Part shown: one piece after another, positions 25,593 to 32,370 of the stretch
How the letters are laid out: every line of letters begins with the position of its first letter
How positions within the stretch are numbered: the stretch's first letter is position 1
Source: Actinomyces bouchesdurhonensis
GTDB taxonomy: Bacteria > Actinomycetota > Actinomycetes > Actinomycetales > Actinomycetaceae
NCBI RefSeq assembly: GCF_900128465.1
Contig: NZ_LT635868.1
Coordinates: forward strand, 60,736-104,560
Direction: 5' to 3'
DNA: 43,825 nucleotides
The notes under the pieces: generated by a model
The model's input: the letters and a program-made list of their open reading frames with translations, nothing else
Database searches by the model: none
What the model was told of the DNA's origin: nothing
Translations under genes and position numbers: made by a program

Positions 25593-25639
25593 GTTGTTGG
25601 AGTATCTTGGACGTATCTCCAATTGATCGGACGAAGGAG

Positions 25640-26998
25640 TTGCGGGCTATAGGCGCAAACGTGGTGCTTTAGACGGCGTGTCGTGGGTCTAGTGGGCGCG
25701 TCCGGCCCAGCCTTTGCGTGGCCAGAGTCCTTCTTCTGGGGTGGGGGTTCCTTCCGGGATTCCGTGGCGTTTCTGATCGGTGTGGTTGGGGTGTTTGGGT
25801 GTGGGGATCCGGCGGGGTGTGGGGCGCCCGTCGTGTTCCCATTGGGTCAGGACTTCGGTGGGGGTCGGGGGTTGTGGGGTGCGCAGGAGGAGAGCCCATT
25901 CGGCGATGACGGCTTGGTGGTAGGCACTGGCACCGCGGTGAGCGTGGAGGAGTTCACGCACGACAGCGTTGATGGATTCGACGTGGTTGGTGGTGGCGCA
26001 GGCCGGCGGGTCGGCTGGTGTGCCGTCGGGGTTGGTCAGGTAGGTGAACAGCACTCCTTGGCGTGCCAGTCGTGCCAAGCGTCGGTAGGCGCGGCGCGTG
26101 CGTTCATGCGTGTACCACCAGGTTTTACCGGTTTTTGACGCCCATGCAGGGTCTTGAGCGGCGAAGGTGCGCTGTGACATCCATTCTCGGAAGGTGTGCC
26201 CAAAGTCGTGGAGCATCGTCAACCACGCGCTGGCTTGGTCGACGCTGGTGATGCTCGTCAAGCGTCGTGACAAGGCCAGCAACGCCCGTGCGGGTTCGGT
26301 TCTGGGATGCATGGTGAGGTCGCGGATGATGTCACGATGAACGTGGACCAGGCAGCGTTGCACGCGCGTGGAGGGCCATAGGTGCGCGATAGCCGCCAAG
26401 GCGCCTGCAGCACCGTCGGTGGTGACCACATCGGCAGGAGCGAGGCGTTCAAGTAGGGCCGTGTAGGCCTGCGCGGATTCGTTGGCCGCCCACTGCCACT
26501 CCAGCACATGCTCGCGGTCTCGGGCGATCAGCAGCACCCATTCGCCTGACAGGTGCATGCCGTCAATGAAGATCTGATCGTGGACCTGCCCGGTGACGGG
26601 CGGGTGAGGTACCGGCACCTGCCAGCACCAACAGGTACGACGCCGGAAAGCGCGCGCTGAGCCTTCCTGTTCGTCTTGGGTGTGCCGAGACGTCGCCCAC
26701 GCGATGAAGTCTGCCAGCTCATCGGCTTGTTCGTGTCGGCGCGCACGCCCTGATGGACATGTGGTTGACAGGGCGCACGAGGTGCATTTCCACCGTTGAG
26801 CGCCCGCCGCGGTGTGTCCATTCTTCTTCATCGGCACAGCGCACACCGGGCAACGCCGAGCACGATTCGATCGTGTTCTCACCCACTACACGATCACCCC
26901 AGAAAGTCAAGGAAGCTGCGCGATTAACCGCCCGAACCTAAATAACAGCGACTTTCGCCCGCAATCCCAACCTAAACCCGGAACTTAAGCACCACGTT
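25640..26998 (-). mobile_element. IS1249-like insertion sequence (IS256 superfamily)
   Basis: The single transposase gene is surrounded by two candidate inverted-repeat pairs. The inner/left pair is TTGCGGGC..AGxCGC at 25640-25656 against 26948-26964 (14 of 17 matching). The other is AACGTGGTGCTT at 25658-25669 against 26987-26998 (12 of 12). The second gives an element of about 1.34 kb, close to the IS1249 size. I found no convincing 8-9 bp target duplication with either choice, so the exact ends are open. Confidence 0.75.
25689..26882 (-). CDS. IS1249-family transposase
   Basis: A 397-residue DDE transposase. The N-terminus carries a zinc ribbon (CPVC near residue 11, CTSC near residue 34), then FRRRTCWCW. 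The catalytic region has IFIDGMHL (first Asp), VVTTDGAAGAL (second Asp), the QRCLVHVHRDI block, and TTNHVESINAVVRELL.AHRG with the Glu, which matches IS1249/IS256 proteins. The GTG at 26882 is the first possible start, because TAG lies two codons upstream in frame, and it retains the zinc ribbon. The frame is intact, so the element could be active. Confidence 0.9.
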   Translation of the reverse strand: MRTRSNRARRCPVCAVPMKKNGHTAAGAQRWKCTSCALSTTCPSGRARRHEQADELADFIAWATSRHTQDEQEGSARAFRRRTCWCWQVPVPHPPVTGQVHDQIFIDGMHLSGEWVLLIARDREHVLEWQWAANESAQAYTALLERLAPADVVTTDGAAGALAAIAHLWPSTRVQRCLVHVHRDIIRDLTMHPRTEPARALLALSRRLTSITSVDQASAWLTMLHDFGHTFREWMSQRTFAAQDPAWASKTGKTWWYTHERTRRAYRRLARLARQGVLFTYLTNPDGTPADPPACATTNHVESINAVVRELLHAHRGASAYHQAVIAEWALLLRTPQPPTPTEVLTQWEHDGRPTPRRIPTPKHPNHTDQKRHGIPEGTPTPEEGLWPRKGWAGRAH

Positions 26999-27022
26999 CG
27001 TGACCGATAGTCCGGAGTTGCG

Positions 27023-28081
27023 ATGCCCAGCGTGATCGCCTACGGCTGCGACGACGCCACCACCCAGTTCCACCCCCTCCAGATCGACATCCGAGAACCC
27101 AGCGAAGGCGAAATCTACCTCGATGTCGCCTACGCGGGCATCTGCCACTCCGACATCCACTCCGCCCGAGGCGAGTGGGGTCCCGTGGCCTACCCGCTCG
27201 TGCCCGGCCACGAGTTCGTCGGCACCGTCGCCAAGGTCGGCCCCGGCGTCACCAAGTTCAAGGTGGGGGACCGCGTGGGCGTAGGCTGCCTGGTCGGCTC
27301 CTGCGGTATCTGCGAGATGTGCGAATCCGGCTACGAGCAGTGGTGCACGTCGACGCCGGGCACCCTGTGGACCTACCGCGCCGACGCTGACGGTAACCCG
27401 ACGACCGGCGGCTACTCGCGCGGCTTCACCGTGCGCGAGGACTTCGCGCTCCGCATCCCGTCCGAACTGGATTTTTCGGCCTGCGCGCCCCTCCTGTGCG
27501 CCGGTATCACCACCTACTCGCCGCTGAAGCACTATCAGGTGGGTCCCGGCTCGCGCGTTGCCATCCTCGGCATGGGCGGCCTCGGACATGTGGGCGTGCA
27601 GATCGCCAAAGCCATGGGCGCGGAGGTCTCCGTCATCTCCCACGGTTGCTCGAAGGAAGCCGACGCCCGCCGCTTCGGCGCCGACCACTTCTACGCGACC
27701 AGCGAAGAGGGGACTCTTGAATCGCTGCGCGGATCCTTCGACCTCATCCTGTGCACCGTCTCCGCGGACGGCCTCGACTACGCCGGTTACATGGCCGCCC
27801 TGCGCCCCTACGGCGTCTTCGTCGATGTGGGTCTGCCCACCGAGCCGGTCTCGCTGCCGCTGCGTGCCTTCGTCAACGGCGGCAAGTCCTTCGCGGGTTC
27901 CCAGATCGGCGGCATCGCTGAGACCCAGGAGATGCTGGACTTCTGCGCAGAGCACGGCGTCATCCCGCAGGTTGAGATGATCACCGGTGAGGAGATCACG
28001 GAGGCCTACGACAACGTCGTCGCTTCGCGGGTGCGCTACCGCTACGTTGTTGACACCTCCACGTTCCCCGAGACCGCGTGA
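27023..28081 (+). CDS. zinc-dependent NAD(P) alcohol dehydrogenase, cinnamyl-alcohol-dehydrogenase-like
   Basis: A medium-chain dehydrogenase of 352 residues interconverting alcohols and aldehydes. Catalytic zinc ligands are in AGICHSDIH (Cys, near residue 41) and GHEFVG (His-Glu, near residue 63). The structural-zinc cysteines lie in GSCGICEMCESGYEQWC, and the Rossmann motif GMGGLGHVGVQ near residue 186. This pattern matches the YahK/CAD group, usually NADPH-dependent for aldehydes. GGAG precedes the ATG. The IS right end lies only about 25-60 bases upstream, so the native promoter may be displaced. The 3' end is duplicated at 29341. Confidence 0.93.
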   Translation: MPSVIAYGCDDATTQFHPLQIDIREPSEGEIYLDVAYAGICHSDIHSARGEWGPVAYPLVPGHEFVGTVAKVGPGVTKFKVGDRVGVGCLVGSCGICEMCESGYEQWCTSTPGTLWTYRADADGNPTTGGYSRGFTVREDFALRIPSELDFSACAPLLCAGITTYSPLKHYQVGPGSRVAILGMGGLGHVGVQIAKAMGAEVSVISHGCSKEADARRFGADHFYATSEEGTLESLRGSFDLILCTVSADGLDYAGYMAALRPYGVFVDVGLPTEPVSLPLRAFVNGGKSFAGSQIGGIAETQEMLDFCAEHGVIPQVEMITGEEITEAYDNVVASRVRYRYVVDTSTFPETA

Positions 28082-28129: not shown

Positions 28130-28253
28130 TCCGATTCTCTGGGTGAACGATGCTACTCACAGCTAACTCTTCGACACTAAGACAAATATTGAGTGTTTGA
28201 GATCACTTCAGATACCATGGATGCTAGTTGTGTTCCCTGGCTGCGTCGTGTAT

Positions 28254-28270
28254 TCTGTCGTCTTGACAGA
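28254..28270 (+). promoter_or_regulatory. hairpin upstream of the Abi gene
   Basis: TCTGTC and GACAGA flank a 5-base loop, between the adh terminator and the abi promoter. It could be part of a small structured RNA. Confidence 0.25.
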
Positions 28271-28291
28271 CCCCCGGCCAGGCCTCTGGTG

Positions 28292-28300
28292 TGGTATAAT
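28292..28300 (+). promoter_or_regulatory. extended -10 promoter of the Abi gene
   Basis: TGGTATAAT is a perfect extended -10. It would start RNA near 28307, seven bases before the ATG at 28314. A TTGACA at 28263 is too far upstream (26 bases) to be its -35. Confidence 0.6.
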
Positions 28301-28313
28301 TCTTACTACGCAC

Positions 28314-29318
28314 ATGCACAAATGGCCGGGGCCATTTTATGCAGGGAAGCCTGAAGTGAGTTCAGAAGTCGGTAAAGTTCGGCTGACATACGGTGAACAG
28401 CTTGATCTACTAAAGCGTCGTGGCATGCTCATTGAGGATGAGGTAGAAGCCGCAGCTATCTTATCTCGTGTCAACTACTATCGCCTATCCGGCTATTTTC
28501 GCTATTGGCAGGTCGATCCGGATCATCAAGACGATTCCTTCGTTGATGGGACAAGCTTCAATGCTGTCTATCGGCTGTATGAGATGGAGCGTCTGCTCAG
28601 TCATGAGTGCTCAATGTTGCTAGCCTCATGTGAAATTTTCCTGCGAAATCGATTTGCGTATCATTACGCGGAGCACTTTGCTCCTGTTGCCTCTTATGCT
28701 CATGGTGAAGGTTTTAGTCAACCCCAGTCTTTCTCTAAAGAGGAACCCGTGCAGGAACGCATACTGTCCGACCTGGATCGCAGTAGTGATCAGTTCGTTC
28801 TGCACTATCGTGATGAGATTAAGTCTGGAACATCGTATCTTCCTCAGGCCTACGACAGGATGCCGATATGGGTTGCTGTTGAGGTTCTTAGTTTTGGGAC
28901 ACTATCGCGTATGATTCAGGCCTCAGGAGTATCTGGTGTTTTAGATTCAATTGTTGCACCCCCGCTTAGTATGTCGCGAAGTAGTTTTCCCTCCCAAGTT
29001 CGATCGTTAGTTTATTTGCGAAATCGCTGTTCGCACTTCAACCGGCTTTGGAATATTTCTGTGTCGGATGCACCTGCGTTGAGTCGAAATATTGCAAATA
29101 GGATCAAAAAGAACTATCGGACGTTTGATGACCGTTCGATTTATAAGATCCTGGCGGTGATGCATCATTTTGTTCAGAATGCAGGAATTTGTGATGATTG
29201 GTTGGGGGTGCAAATCGAGCCCTTGCTGCAGGAGAACCCGCTTCTTGCGTATGGGATTGCGACGCCAAAGAAATACGGGGAAATGCCACGCGATGTTCTG
29301 ATCGATGCAAACTCGTGA
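28314..29318 (+). CDS. Abi_2 (AbiD/AbiF-type) abortive-infection protein
   Basis: A 334-residue protein of the Abi_2 family, linked to phage abortive infection. The N-terminal signature reads LTYGEQLDLLKRRGMLIEDE..A...L.RVNYYRLSGYF. A HEPN-type RNase motif is present near the C-terminal third: RNRCSH (Arg236, Asn237, His241), as expected for an RNA-cleaving toxin. Base composition is clearly more AT-rich than neighbours, with rare-type codons, which points to horizontal acquisition. The start is not certain. The ATG at 28314 fits the promoter, and a GTG at 28356 has a GGGAAG sequence in front; a longer open frame from 28197 lies upstream of the promoter. A small AATGGCC/GGCCATT hairpin at 28321-28336 is followed by TTT. 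Confidence 0.82.
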   Translation: MHKWPGPFYAGKPEVSSEVGKVRLTYGEQLDLLKRRGMLIEDEVEAAAILSRVNYYRLSGYFRYWQVDPDHQDDSFVDGTSFNAVYRLYEMERLLSHECSMLLASCEIFLRNRFAYHYAEHFAPVASYAHGEGFSQPQSFSKEEPVQERILSDLDRSSDQFVLHYRDEIKSGTSYLPQAYDRMPIWVAVEVLSFGTLSRMIQASGVSGVLDSIVAPPLSMSRSSFPSQVRSLVYLRNRCSHFNRLWNISVSDAPALSRNIANRIKKNYRTFDDRSIYKILAVMHHFVQNAGICDDWLGVQIEPLLQENPLLAYGIATPKKYGEMPRDVLIDANS

Positions 29319-29340
29319 TCCGCATGATGGGTCAGTGCCG

Positions 29341-29388
29341 CGCTACCGCTACGTCATCGACACCTCCGCGTTCGCCGAAACCGTTTGA
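29341..29388 (+). pseudogene. remnant of an alcohol dehydrogenase 3' end
   Basis: Sixteen codons read RYRYVIDTSAFAETV plus a stop, nearly the C-terminus of the enzyme at 27023 (RYRYVVDTSTFPETA). No start or upstream adh sequence exists. It is therefore a scrap left by duplication or by recombination with a related gene. Confidence 0.7.
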
Positions 29389-29416
29389 GCGTGAGGGTGT
29401 AACGCTCAAGCCCCGG
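29341..29416 (+). repeat. duplicated 3' end of the alcohol dehydrogenase gene, copy B
   Basis: Partner of the repeat at 28034-28110. It extends past the stop into the left arm of the terminator (AAGCCCCGG) and then breaks off. Confidence 0.8.
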
Positions 29417-29523
29417 TCAAAGGTCATAATGTGTTGGTCGCGGTTCGGTCCCAGGCATCATCGAGGGCGGTGTCGTTGGGCTAGTGTGCTCGCGCCACAA
29501 GTCTTCAGACAGGATGCGCCCCA

Positions 29524-29573
29524 TCGGGAAGATTTCACCCGATCAGTAGGGGTTGGTTCTTCCCGATCGGGTG
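29524..29573. repeat. two interlocked inverted repeats
   Basis: TCGGGAAGA (29524-29532) pairs with TCTTCCCGA (29558-29566). CACCCGATC (29536-29544) pairs with GATCGGGTG (29565-29573). In RNA the two stems would interlock like a pseudoknot or compete. Confidence 0.4.
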
Positions 29574-29838
29574 TTACACCTCATCGGCAACAAGCGTCGT
29601 CGTGGGGCTAGTCGACCGTGACATTCCCCTTCAATGTCGGCGACGCCTCACCGACGTTAAACTGCACCTGGTCGGGCAGCGCTGCACTAGTTAGGGGTCT
29701 TACACCAGTTAGCAACAAGCCGCGTCTCGGAGTCGTGAGTCGACGCAGCATCGAAGAGACACTTCGCCCCAAGCGTCAGACCCCACGTCGAGCGCAGGCG
29801 GTGTGCCTCGGCCCCGGCAAGGCACCGCGGCGCGCGTC

Positions 29839-29985
29839 CGTTAGCCCCTGAGATGCGCACGTTAACCCTCTAATTGGTGCGTTAACCCTCTAATGTGAGC
29901 GTGGGCGGGGCTGCCCAGGCTCGCATTAGCGGGCCCACGTGCGAGTTAGCGGGCCCGTGTGCGTATTAGCGGGCCCCGTGCGCGG
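29839..29985. repeat. quasi-palindromic array of about 20-bp units
   Basis: Three forward units beginning CGTTA(A/G)CCC start at 29839, 29860 and 29880. Three inverted units (A/G)TTAGCGGGCCC start at 29925, 29945 and 29965, spaced exactly 20 bases. The centre (29884-29935) folds into an imperfect 23-bp hairpin with a 6-base loop. There are no unique spacers, so it is not CRISPR. Confidence 0.65.
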
Positions 29986-30165
29986 CGAGGAGCGCAGGAA
30001 GCTAGCACGCCTCGGCGAACTGCGCCCCTGAACCTGAGCGCCTACACCAGGCCGCGCTTTCGACCACGCATCAGGCATATGGGGCATCCACCCTTCCACG
30101 ATGGAACAACCACCTGCAACACCGATTTTCCCGCACCAACACAACGAAAAGTCACCCCTCCAGCA

Positions 30166-30212
30166 ACATGTTGTGTCCTATAACCCATAATCCACACGTT
30201 GTGTCCTGTAAC
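30166..30212. repeat. 19-bp direct repeat
   Basis: ACATGTTGTGTCCTATAAC at 30166-30184 and ACACGTTGTGTCCTGTAAC at 30194-30212 differ at two positions. They may be remnants of an insertion-sequence end. Confidence 0.4.
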
Positions 30213-30214
30213 GC

Positions 30215-30245
30215 GAAAGCCCCGGGCCGGTGGCCCGGGGCTTTC
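30215..30245. terminator. terminator of tRNA-Gly (minus strand), possibly bidirectional
   Basis: A perfect 14-bp stem with a 3-base loop. It and its left flank (GTAACGCG) closely resemble the adh terminator at 28093-28129. Confidence 0.8.
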
Positions 30246-30255
30246 CCAGTTCTGG

Positions 30256-30326
30256 AGCGGATGACGGGAATCGAACCCGCGTGATCTGCTTGGAAGGCAG
30301 AGGCTCTACCATTGAGCTACATCCGC
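30256..30326 (-). tRNA. tRNA-Gly (anticodon TCC)
   Basis: Acceptor GCGGATG pairs with CATCCGC, and the anticodon loop CTTCCAA gives TCC. CCA is encoded (complement of 30253-30255). Confidence 0.95.
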
Positions 30327-30428
30327 GTACCCCCGAAGGGGACGTGGATGATCCTAGCGGTAATTTTCCGCGTACGCGACATTTAGCATCACCTCCCGTA
30401 TGATAGGGCAGCGGACATACGTATCCAT

Positions 30429-30505
<77 letters not shown>

Positions 30506-30552
30506 TCAGCGACGACACTGTCGCACCCGCCAACGCGAGCAGGAGAGCTGTC

Positions 30553-30834
30553 ATGCCGTCCTACCGGACCATCCTGACGGTCACGACCCTCGCGCCCGGG
30601 CGTGCCCCCGAAGAAGTCGAACAGGCGGCGCGCACAGTGACACGGCTCGAATCCTGGGACATCGCCATTGTCGCGAGGCAGCCACGCATCACAGCACGAT
30701 TCACAGCCGTCGACGACGCAGAAGCACGAACCATCCACGCCGCAATCACCGACGCAGTCCGTGAGGTCGCCGACGTTCCCCGCGCGCGGCTGGCCGCTGT
30801 CATGCGCGGCCGCTCCCACTACCTGACCCCCTGA
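30553..30834 (+). CDS. small hypothetical protein, 93 residues
   Basis: The ATG at 30553 is preceded by AGGAG at 30541-30545. The same frame is open farther upstream but would run through tRNA-Pro, so the longer version is rejected. The protein is soluble, Ala/Arg/Thr-rich, begins MPSYRTILTVTTL and has an alternating strand-helix pattern that could be a small ferredoxin-like fold. No signal peptide, membrane span or catalytic motif is seen. It lies alone between tRNA-Pro and tig. Coding nature is likely from codon use and the ribosome site; function unknown. Confidence 0.6.
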   Translation: MPSYRTILTVTTLAPGRAPEEVEQAARTVTRLESWDIAIVARQPRITARFTAVDDAEARTIHAAITDAVREVADVPRARLAAVMRGRSHYLTP

Positions 30835-30860
30835 GGACAGCAGACCACTAAGCCCGCCCA

Positions 30861-30869
30861 GGCCTCGTC
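30861..30869 (+). repeat. core copy (GGCCTCGTC) of the dispersed motif
   Basis: Nine-base core, about 27 bases after the small hypothetical gene; again a spacer downstream of a gene. Confidence 0.45.
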
Positions 30870-31050
30870 CCGGACGAAACAAACACAACAGTGGTGTGCA
30901 ATTGCGCACGCGTTAGGCCCGTGAGGAGCTCCATACGCCCATTTGCCTACGGCGAAGAGAGACATTAAGCAAAGCGTGGCGTAAACTGGCCAGGTTGTTA
31001 TGCGCCCGACATGGGCGTTCCCCTATTCGTAGACTACGGAGCGTACGCAC

Positions 31051-32370
31051 GTGAAGAGCACCGTTGAAACCCTCGAGCCCACCAAGGTTCGCCTGACTGT
31101 TGAAGTTCCCTTCGAGGAACTGAAGTCCGAAATGGACAAGGCGTACAAGGAGATCGCCGGACAAGTCAACATCCCTGGCTTCCGTAAGGGCCACGTGCCT
31201 CCGCGCATCATCGATCAGCGTTTCGGTCGCGCCGCCGTCATCGAGCAGGTCGTTAACCAGGTCCTGCCCGGCCACTACTCTGACGCCGTCAACCAGAACG
31301 AGCTGCGCCCCATGGCCCAGCCAGAGGTCGACGTCACCGAGATCCCGAACGTGACCGGTCCCCAGGGCGGCCAGCTCGTCTTCACCGCCGAAGTCGCCGT
31401 CGTTCCTCCCTTTGAACTGCCTGAGATTGACGAATCCATCGTCGTCGAGGTCGCGCCCACCGAGGTCACCGAGGAAGATGTCCAGAAGGAGCTCGACGAC
31501 CTGCGCGGTCGCTTCGCGACCCTGAAGACCATCAACCGCAAGGCCAAGACCGGCGACTTCGCGACCATCGACCTGGTCGCCACCATCAACGGCGAGCAGG
31601 TTGACTCCGCCTCCGACGTCTCCTACGAAATCGGATCCGGCACCATGCTTGACGGCCAGGACACCGCCCTGCGCGGCACCAAGGTCGGCGACGAGGTCAC
31701 CTTCACTTCCACCCTCAAGGGCGGCGACCACGAAGGCGAAGAAGCCGAGGTGACTATCACTGTGAAGGCCATGAAGGCGCGCGAGCTGCCCAAGGCTGAC
31801 GACGACTTCGCCCAGATGGTATCTGAGTTCGACACCATCGATGAGCTGACTGAGGACTTGAAGAAGCAGGCCGGCGAATCCAAGGAATCCCAGCAGGCCC
31901 TCGCCGCGCGTGACGCCCTCATCGACGTCCTCCTCGACAAGGTTGAGATCGTCCTGCCCGAGTCCGCGGTCGATGACCAGGTTGAGCACCGCGTCGGCGA
32001 AGATGCTAAGCCCAAGGCCAAGAAGGAGGCCCGCGAAGCAGTCGAGAAGGAGATGCGCACCGAACTGCTCTCCGAGGCCCTGGCCAAGAAGTTCGACGTT
32101 CAGGTTTCCCAGCAGGAACTCATCGACTACGCGATCCAGATGTCGCAGAACTTCGGGGTCGACATCAACCAGCTCTTCTCCTCCTCGCAGCAGATGGCCA
32201 ACGTTGTTGCCGACCTTGGTCGCTCCAAGGCTCTCATTGAGGCCCTCAAGGTCGTCACCGTCAAGGACACGAATGGCGCCGACGTTGACCTCACCAAGTT
32301 CTTCGGCGCTGATCCTGGCGCCGAATCCGGCGCGGAGATCGTTACCGAGCCTGCCGACGAGCAGGAATGA
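31051..32370 (+). CDS. tig: trigger factor, ribosome-associated chaperone
   Basis: A 439-residue chaperone and peptidyl-prolyl isomerase that binds nascent chains at the ribosome exit. The ribosome-docking signature GFRKGHVPP lies near residue 44. The FKBP-like domain lies around residues 160-245, followed by a long helical C-terminal domain. The acidic tail (GADPGAESGAEIVTEPADEQE, read in part) is normal for actinobacteria. The start is GTG at 31051 with CGGAG about ten bases upstream. It precedes clpP1-clpP2 and clpX, the widespread tig-clpP-clpX order linking folding and proteolysis. Confidence 0.95.
   Translation: MKSTVETLEPTKVRLTVEVPFEELKSEMDKAYKEIAGQVNIPGFRKGHVPPRIIDQRFGRAAVIEQVVNQVLPGHYSDAVNQNELRPMAQPEVDVTEIPNVTGPQGGQLVFTAEVAVVPPFELPEIDESIVVEVAPTEVTEEDVQKELDDLRGRFATLKTINRKAKTGDFATIDLVATINGEQVDSASDVSYEIGSGTMLDGQDTALRGTKVGDEVTFTSTLKGGDHEGEEAEVTITVKAMKARELPKADDDFAQMVSEFDTIDELTEDLKKQAGESKESQQALAARDALIDVLLDKVEIVLPESAVDDQVEHRVGEDAKPKAKKEAREAVEKEMRTELLSEALAKKFDVQVSQQELIDYAIQMSQNFGVDINQLFSSSQQMANVVADLGRSKALIEALKVVTVKDTNGADVDLTKFFGADPGAESGAEIVTEPADEQE

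Follow-up and report, generated by a model that had tools for sequence, protein, structure and literature searches.

An inverted array of 20-bp units in Actinomyces bouchesdurhonensis is one copy of a clade-restricted repeat family scattered between genes. The copy studied lies in the window, the whole 43,825-bp stretch of DNA that was analysed. The family was probably spread by way of small transposon derivatives and is probably not a one-off control site. In the reading that we prefer, with some reserve, the array forms the core of a multi-copy, non-autonomous, foldback-like and MITE-like element, now partly decayed, in a Schaalia odontolytica-like clade.

Sequence reading of positions 28800-31200 and repeat finding revealed three left 20-bp units facing three inverted right units, with a hairpin between them. 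The left arm (29839..29899, plus strand) is of the CGTTA(A/G)CCC type and consists of a degenerate unit, CGTTAGCCC, at 29839, followed by CGTTAACCC at 29860 and CGTTAACCC at 29880. The right arm (29925..29984, plus strand) contains three inverted 20-bp units of the (R)TTAGCGGGCCC type. The hairpin core, GTGGGCGGGGCTGCCCA, was placed at 29901..29917 by sequence and folding, and its stem runs on into the flanking bases. The whole array (29838..29979, plus strand) matched model R1 with 130.9 bits. Within 29839-29985, 68 of 127 positions were identical at a lag of 20 (shuffle mean 34.1, sd 4.9); across lags 8 to 39, none of 2000 shuffles came up to this fraction, and the top lag-20 values of the window, scanned in 5-base steps, all fell within the array. 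The best inverted symmetry joined 38 of 60 pairs, while 500 shuffles had a mean of 24.3 (sd 1.5) and none equalled the array. Folding z-scores against shuffles were -6.25 as RNA and -4.22 as DNA. Periodicity and symmetry thus exceeded every shuffle made, which bears out the mirror-oriented TTAG array around a hairpin described in a sequence-only reading of this DNA. The phasing by 20 bases that it reported is exact for the right arm, whose spacings are 20 and 20; the left spacings are 21 and 20, and the third right unit is one base short. The same reading had set CRISPR aside, and we agree: conserved repeats with unique spacers were not found, the 20-bp period has no spacers, and the two halves are inverted.

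A genome search for the unit uncovered a dispersed multi-copy family in 10 genomes of one clade. Within its own genome the 271-bp array region had 18 matching places, counting itself, which excludes a single chance copy. It also matched 13 of 58 genomes, its own included, three of which (G024, G026 and G049) had only one 24-25 bp match each. An array model built from 25 copies gave 21-55 matches per genome (both strands counted) in 10 of the 35 genomes of the genus and no match in the other 25. When 200 genomes of the family (36 genera) were searched with stricter filters, array matches were obtained in the same 10 only. The trigger factor of these 10 genomes is 90-100% identical to that of the window's genome; in 24 others the identity is 66-80%, and one genome had no match. 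The exact array pattern was found in seven stretches of three named records, Schaalia sp. ORNL0103, Actinomyces sp. HPA0247 and 'Xylanimonas cellulosilytica' 352_XCEL, the last of which appears to be mislabelled. With tens of matches in each genome, spread out and on either strand, the replication or partition site suggested by the sequence-only reading is left without support. A phage or plasmid origin was rejected after a search of viral contigs with one exact array pattern and one distant search each of phages and plasmids all came back empty.

The copies share a plan of inverted units about a short hairpin, and a unit is made up of approximately GGGNNNACGTGCG and a variable stretch. The first alignment of arrays comprised 25 of 35 loci, and one comparison of loci did not include L017-L019, each of which has a lone match of 24-25 bp. 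A loose motif, with 570 matches in the expected orientation and 276 outside, yielded 448 intervals, of which 217 were of 20 bases, 6 of 19 and 3 of 21; the short intervals in this count are self-overlaps of the motif.

A real array occupies 29839-29985, yet it forms no more than the core of a larger repeat island of ~800 bp, about 29414-30214. The island ends resemble the terminal inverted repeats (TIRs) and subterminal blocks of insertion sequences of the IS1249 family (IS256 group). Comparison with IS copies identified a left TIR-like end, CGGTCAAAGGTCATAATGTGTTGG (29414..29437, plus strand), as a degenerate form of GGGTTATAGGACAAAACGTGTTGG. The right part (30020..30186, plus strand) matches the last 255 bp of the IS1249-family element L150 with 71-79% identity. 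Two TIR-like copies on the minus strand, the inner TTATAGGACACAACATGTTG (30164..30186) and the outer TTACAGGACACAACGTGTGG (30190..30214), are candidates for the true right end. The TIRs of this island have 1-2 mismatches per 15 bases relative to GGGTTATAGGACAAAACGTGTTGG, and the motif has 8 matches in the window at up to 3 mismatches versus 3.05 expected, a number reached in 1 of 100 shuffles. A possible target duplication is formed by TCAAGCCC (29406..29413, plus strand) and GAAAGCCC (30215..30222, plus strand), which match in 6 of 8 bases; the latter lies within a terminator that empty sites also have. At eight other loci 2-6 of 8 bases matched in the expected register, and the G034 island has ~30 bp repeated in its right flank in place of the 8-bp duplication. 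The island differs from IS1249-family elements in having neither a transposase nor a clean 8-bp duplication, and also in its internal array, as none of the IS1249 copies read holds one. Islands (L004 880-2560 and others) also contain further recurring blocks, one with CCGAACCGCGACCTCACC and one palindrome with GGGGGAATTGCACCATTAG.

The window island sits at the terminator that separates a dehydrogenase tail from tRNA-Gly. Five sister genomes (G025, G022, G011, G019 and G031) have ~60-66 bp from the dehydrogenase stop to tRNA-Gly, with the terminator between, and this empty site indicates that the island is an insertion. In the window's genome (G000) and in G034 the space between the dehydrogenase and tRNA-Gly is taken up by an AbiD-like gene, another dehydrogenase tail and the island with the array. 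In G023 this place holds an AbiD relative, a second tail and an IS1249 copy, and no array. Upstream of tRNA-Gly, G010 carries a fragment of IS1249, with no dehydrogenase within the stretch read, and G028 lacks both the dehydrogenase and the array at this place. In the region 28197-29388 of the window, the AbiD/Abi_2-type gene, low in G+C, follows the dehydrogenase gene; behind it the last codons of the dehydrogenase occur a second time, which looks like the insertion of a cassette that brought a replacement gene end. Presence and absence were also seen at a second locus, filled in three genomes, empty in five and different in G031, and at a third, filled in G025 and empty in four genomes; both are bare, i.e. 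without IS1249 ends, and neither has an evident target duplication. Length changes of unit size were observed at one orthologous locus, where G034 has one extra left unit (20 bases) compared with two relatives and G025 is 40 bases short in the right arm.

We then compared the array surroundings with IS1249. A separate IS1249-family insertion sequence is present in the window at 25644..27013 on the minus strand (transposase ORF 25689-26882, 383 bits). Its TIR is related to the island ends, it has the 8-bp duplication GGAGTTGC, and it is a candidate source of the transposase type. With this duplication the copy spans 25636-27021 and stops 2 bp short of position 27023, where the dehydrogenase ORF has its ATG. 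Inspection of 22 IS1249-family loci by eye detected exact 8-bp duplications in L150, L126, L147, L130, L131 and L128, all with a related TIR, and in L124, with another TIR type; the remaining loci had no readable second end or no match. We counted 40 occurrences of the TIR motif in G000, allowing up to 2 mismatches, against 0 when it was read backwards as a control. For location we used a sample of 69 arrays in 60 regions of five genomes, a part of all matches. Within 1.5 kb of these arrays, 15 TIR motifs on the left were all on the plus strand and 16 on the right all on the minus strand, so all 31 pointed inward. At least one motif was found near 20 of the 69 arrays, and five had both (backwards control, 0); 49 had none within this distance. 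Orthologous arrays entered these counts, and those of gene gaps, as separate cases. IS1249 end segments matched in 19 of 70 array neighbourhoods, the window included. An IS1249 transposase above the cut-off was encoded by 9 of the 10 array genomes versus 4 of the 25 others.

These observations point to small transposon derivatives. The arrays are non-coding, multi-copy and dispersed, with empty sites, as in MITEs; TIRs common to an autonomous IS of the same genomes are present in the window and similar islands, not in bare arrays. A decayed transposon end had been among the proposals of the sequence-only reading. The link to a transposon held, through the TIR-like ends, the empty sites and the dispersed copies; the array itself, however, is internal to the ends. 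Sequence comparison favours IS1249 as the putative mover of islands such as the one in the window, not of all arrays. In the preferred reading, an IS1249 transposase acting in trans on the TIRs would move the island, and after insertion the copy would decay, with its arms growing or shrinking by whole 20-bp units. The units may have a role in transposase binding, and the array would have no host function.

Sequence similarity among copies is consistent with spread within genomes. Two G010 arrays at different sites have 678 bp in common with 87% identity, ending at the right TIR. When orthologs were grouped by coding sequence, non-orthologous arrays were 66.6% alike within genomes versus 64.2% between genomes, a slight difference that 0 of 1000 label permutations equalled, and the closest non-orthologous pairs were within genomes.

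A different mobile history might account for the bare arrays. The array could be an independent mobile element whose outer units are its own inverted ends, moved by another enzyme, with IS1249-ended islands having picked the array up. Bare arrays at several loci fit this proposal, as do the two loci that were seen filled or empty and have no IS1249 ends, and the arrays of G031, a genome without an IS1249 transposase match. No unit-bounded transposase gene was found in five extra regions, however, with ORFs judged by eye; the two bare sites have no evident target duplication, and the closest recent copies, those of G010, travel with an IS1249-type end. We consider this origin rather unlikely, and first among the alternatives.

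The 20-bp units might instead be selected, putative binding sites of a host DNA-binding protein, serving chromosome organisation or regulation, arranged with symmetry around the hairpin and spread by mobile DNA; sites for a cooperative DNA-binding protein were also among the proposals of the sequence-only reading. The near-constant spacing of 20 and the fact that only unit-sized length changes occurred in the one ortholog set examined agree with this proposal. So does the number of indels per substitution, which by a rough estimate was 0.054 in arrays versus 0.129 in nearby intergenic DNA; such a lower rate would also fit constraint on spacing. Substitutions, in contrast, were not fewer: orthologous arrays differed by 11.4% versus 9.5% in nearby intergenic DNA, with some pairs mis-registered, and strong purifying selection on the arrays was rejected on this ground. 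Arrays were also gained and lost between close species, and no candidate protein was found. A host-protein function for the units is improbable.

We also weighed whether the array acts as RNA, forming a long hairpin at the 3' end of transcripts that would terminate or stabilise them, a role proposed for some extragenic palindromes. Its very stable fold speaks for such a role, as does the gene setting. By a lenient home-made gene call, the 69 arrays lay in 26 convergent, 35 co-directional and 5 divergent gaps, with 2 overlapping a weak ORF and 1 unassigned; array-free gaps in the same regions were 83 co-directional, 29 divergent and 25 convergent. With orthologous arrays counted as independent, divergent gaps held fewer arrays than expected (depletion, p 0.016) and convergent gaps more (enrichment, p 0.002). 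Co-directional arrays were oriented along the genes in 25 of 35 cases and against them in 10, and the RNAalifold consensus had at least one compensatory change in 7 of 23 pairs. An arm-swap test on 51 non-redundant arrays, cut from 69 by an 85% identity limit, argued otherwise. Own and swapped arms formed 38.16 and 38.16 of 60 pairs, respectively; with Watson-Crick pairs only, the values were 32.3 and 31.7, with 85 of 1000 shuffles as high, and duplex energies were likewise indistinct. Co-variation of paired positions within copies, expected of a structured RNA, was therefore not seen in this test, and a selected RNA hairpin is disfavoured because own arms pair no better than the arms of other copies. 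The minus strand folded better in 14 or 11 of 25 arrays, with no overall strand preference, and G-U pairs of the minus strand failed as a mark of the transcribed strand. Furthermore, the array comes after terminators that empty sites already have, and no Rfam family overlapped it at E up to 1. On balance, the symmetry of the array follows from the common unit, and an RNA role is very doubtful.

REP/BIME elements with RAYT transposases are described as extragenic, palindromic, modular, species-group specific and dispersed (PMC2817692). The array family is likewise all of these; it differs in its 20-bp periodic units and lower copy number. The RAYT/REP mechanism itself was ruled out by the absence of Y1_Tnp (PF01797) from all 35 genomes, in a search whose control was positive in 5 of 14 known genomes. 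By analogy, the arrays could form a two-part system of this kind together with a cognate protein that acts on DNA, with an unrelated enzyme, which we regard as a slim chance. A candidate for such a partner is a gene that changes fast, has a sub-threshold match to the RAP domain and is bracketed by two direct arrays.

In six genomes (L077 1028-2685; also L052, L094, L097, L165 and L166) this gene, with the two direct arrays on either side of it, lies downstream of one that by eye looks like rpoC. Identity to the G028 counterpart is 59-93% for the array-flanked proteins and 98-100% for the end of the upstream gene. In G031 and G000, the most divergent of the six, the paired arrays resemble each other more than the copies of other genomes. 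G019 and G010 have a surface-protein-like gene and no arrays at this locus. The RAP-domain protein was rejected as an array-specific factor and is kept only as a low-probability case, because 33 of the 35 genomes have the family and no more than 6 of the 10 carriers have the array-flanked subtype. At another locus (L168 2262-5791), a 667-codon open frame that by eye resembles a DUF262 protein stands between two arrays; these are on a 99.9% direct duplication of 928 bp, which may be an assembly artefact.

By its form, the favoured transposon-derived element also has a parallel outside bacteria. The Tm1 transposase is of the Mutator type, and Mutator is a superfamily related to IS256. The Tm1 foldback or Mutator-foldback elements of nematodes have internally repeated inverted repeats of variable length and MITE-like members (PMC3169594), and the array also consists of internally repeated inverted repeats of variable length. 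Tm1 elements are eukaryotic, however, and their arrays are the termini (PMC3169594), whereas here the array is internal to TIRs or bare. We note a likeness of form and claim no common descent. Inverted tandem units, as in foldback elements, were present in all copies aligned, and they would be element ends only if bare arrays are the element itself. The array family is MITE-like by form and distribution and foldback-like by its repeated inverted arms. No paper joining IS1249 with MITEs was found in the open-access literature searched.

The repeat family accounted for here belongs to an oral-type bacterial clade, and no earlier description or label of it was found in the open-access literature and libraries searched. 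The array adjoins accessory genes such as AbiD, and the family gives foldback elements a bacterial parallel, with a link to a transposase of the IS256 group. If the units bind transposase, the reason for internal arrays in such derivatives would become testable.
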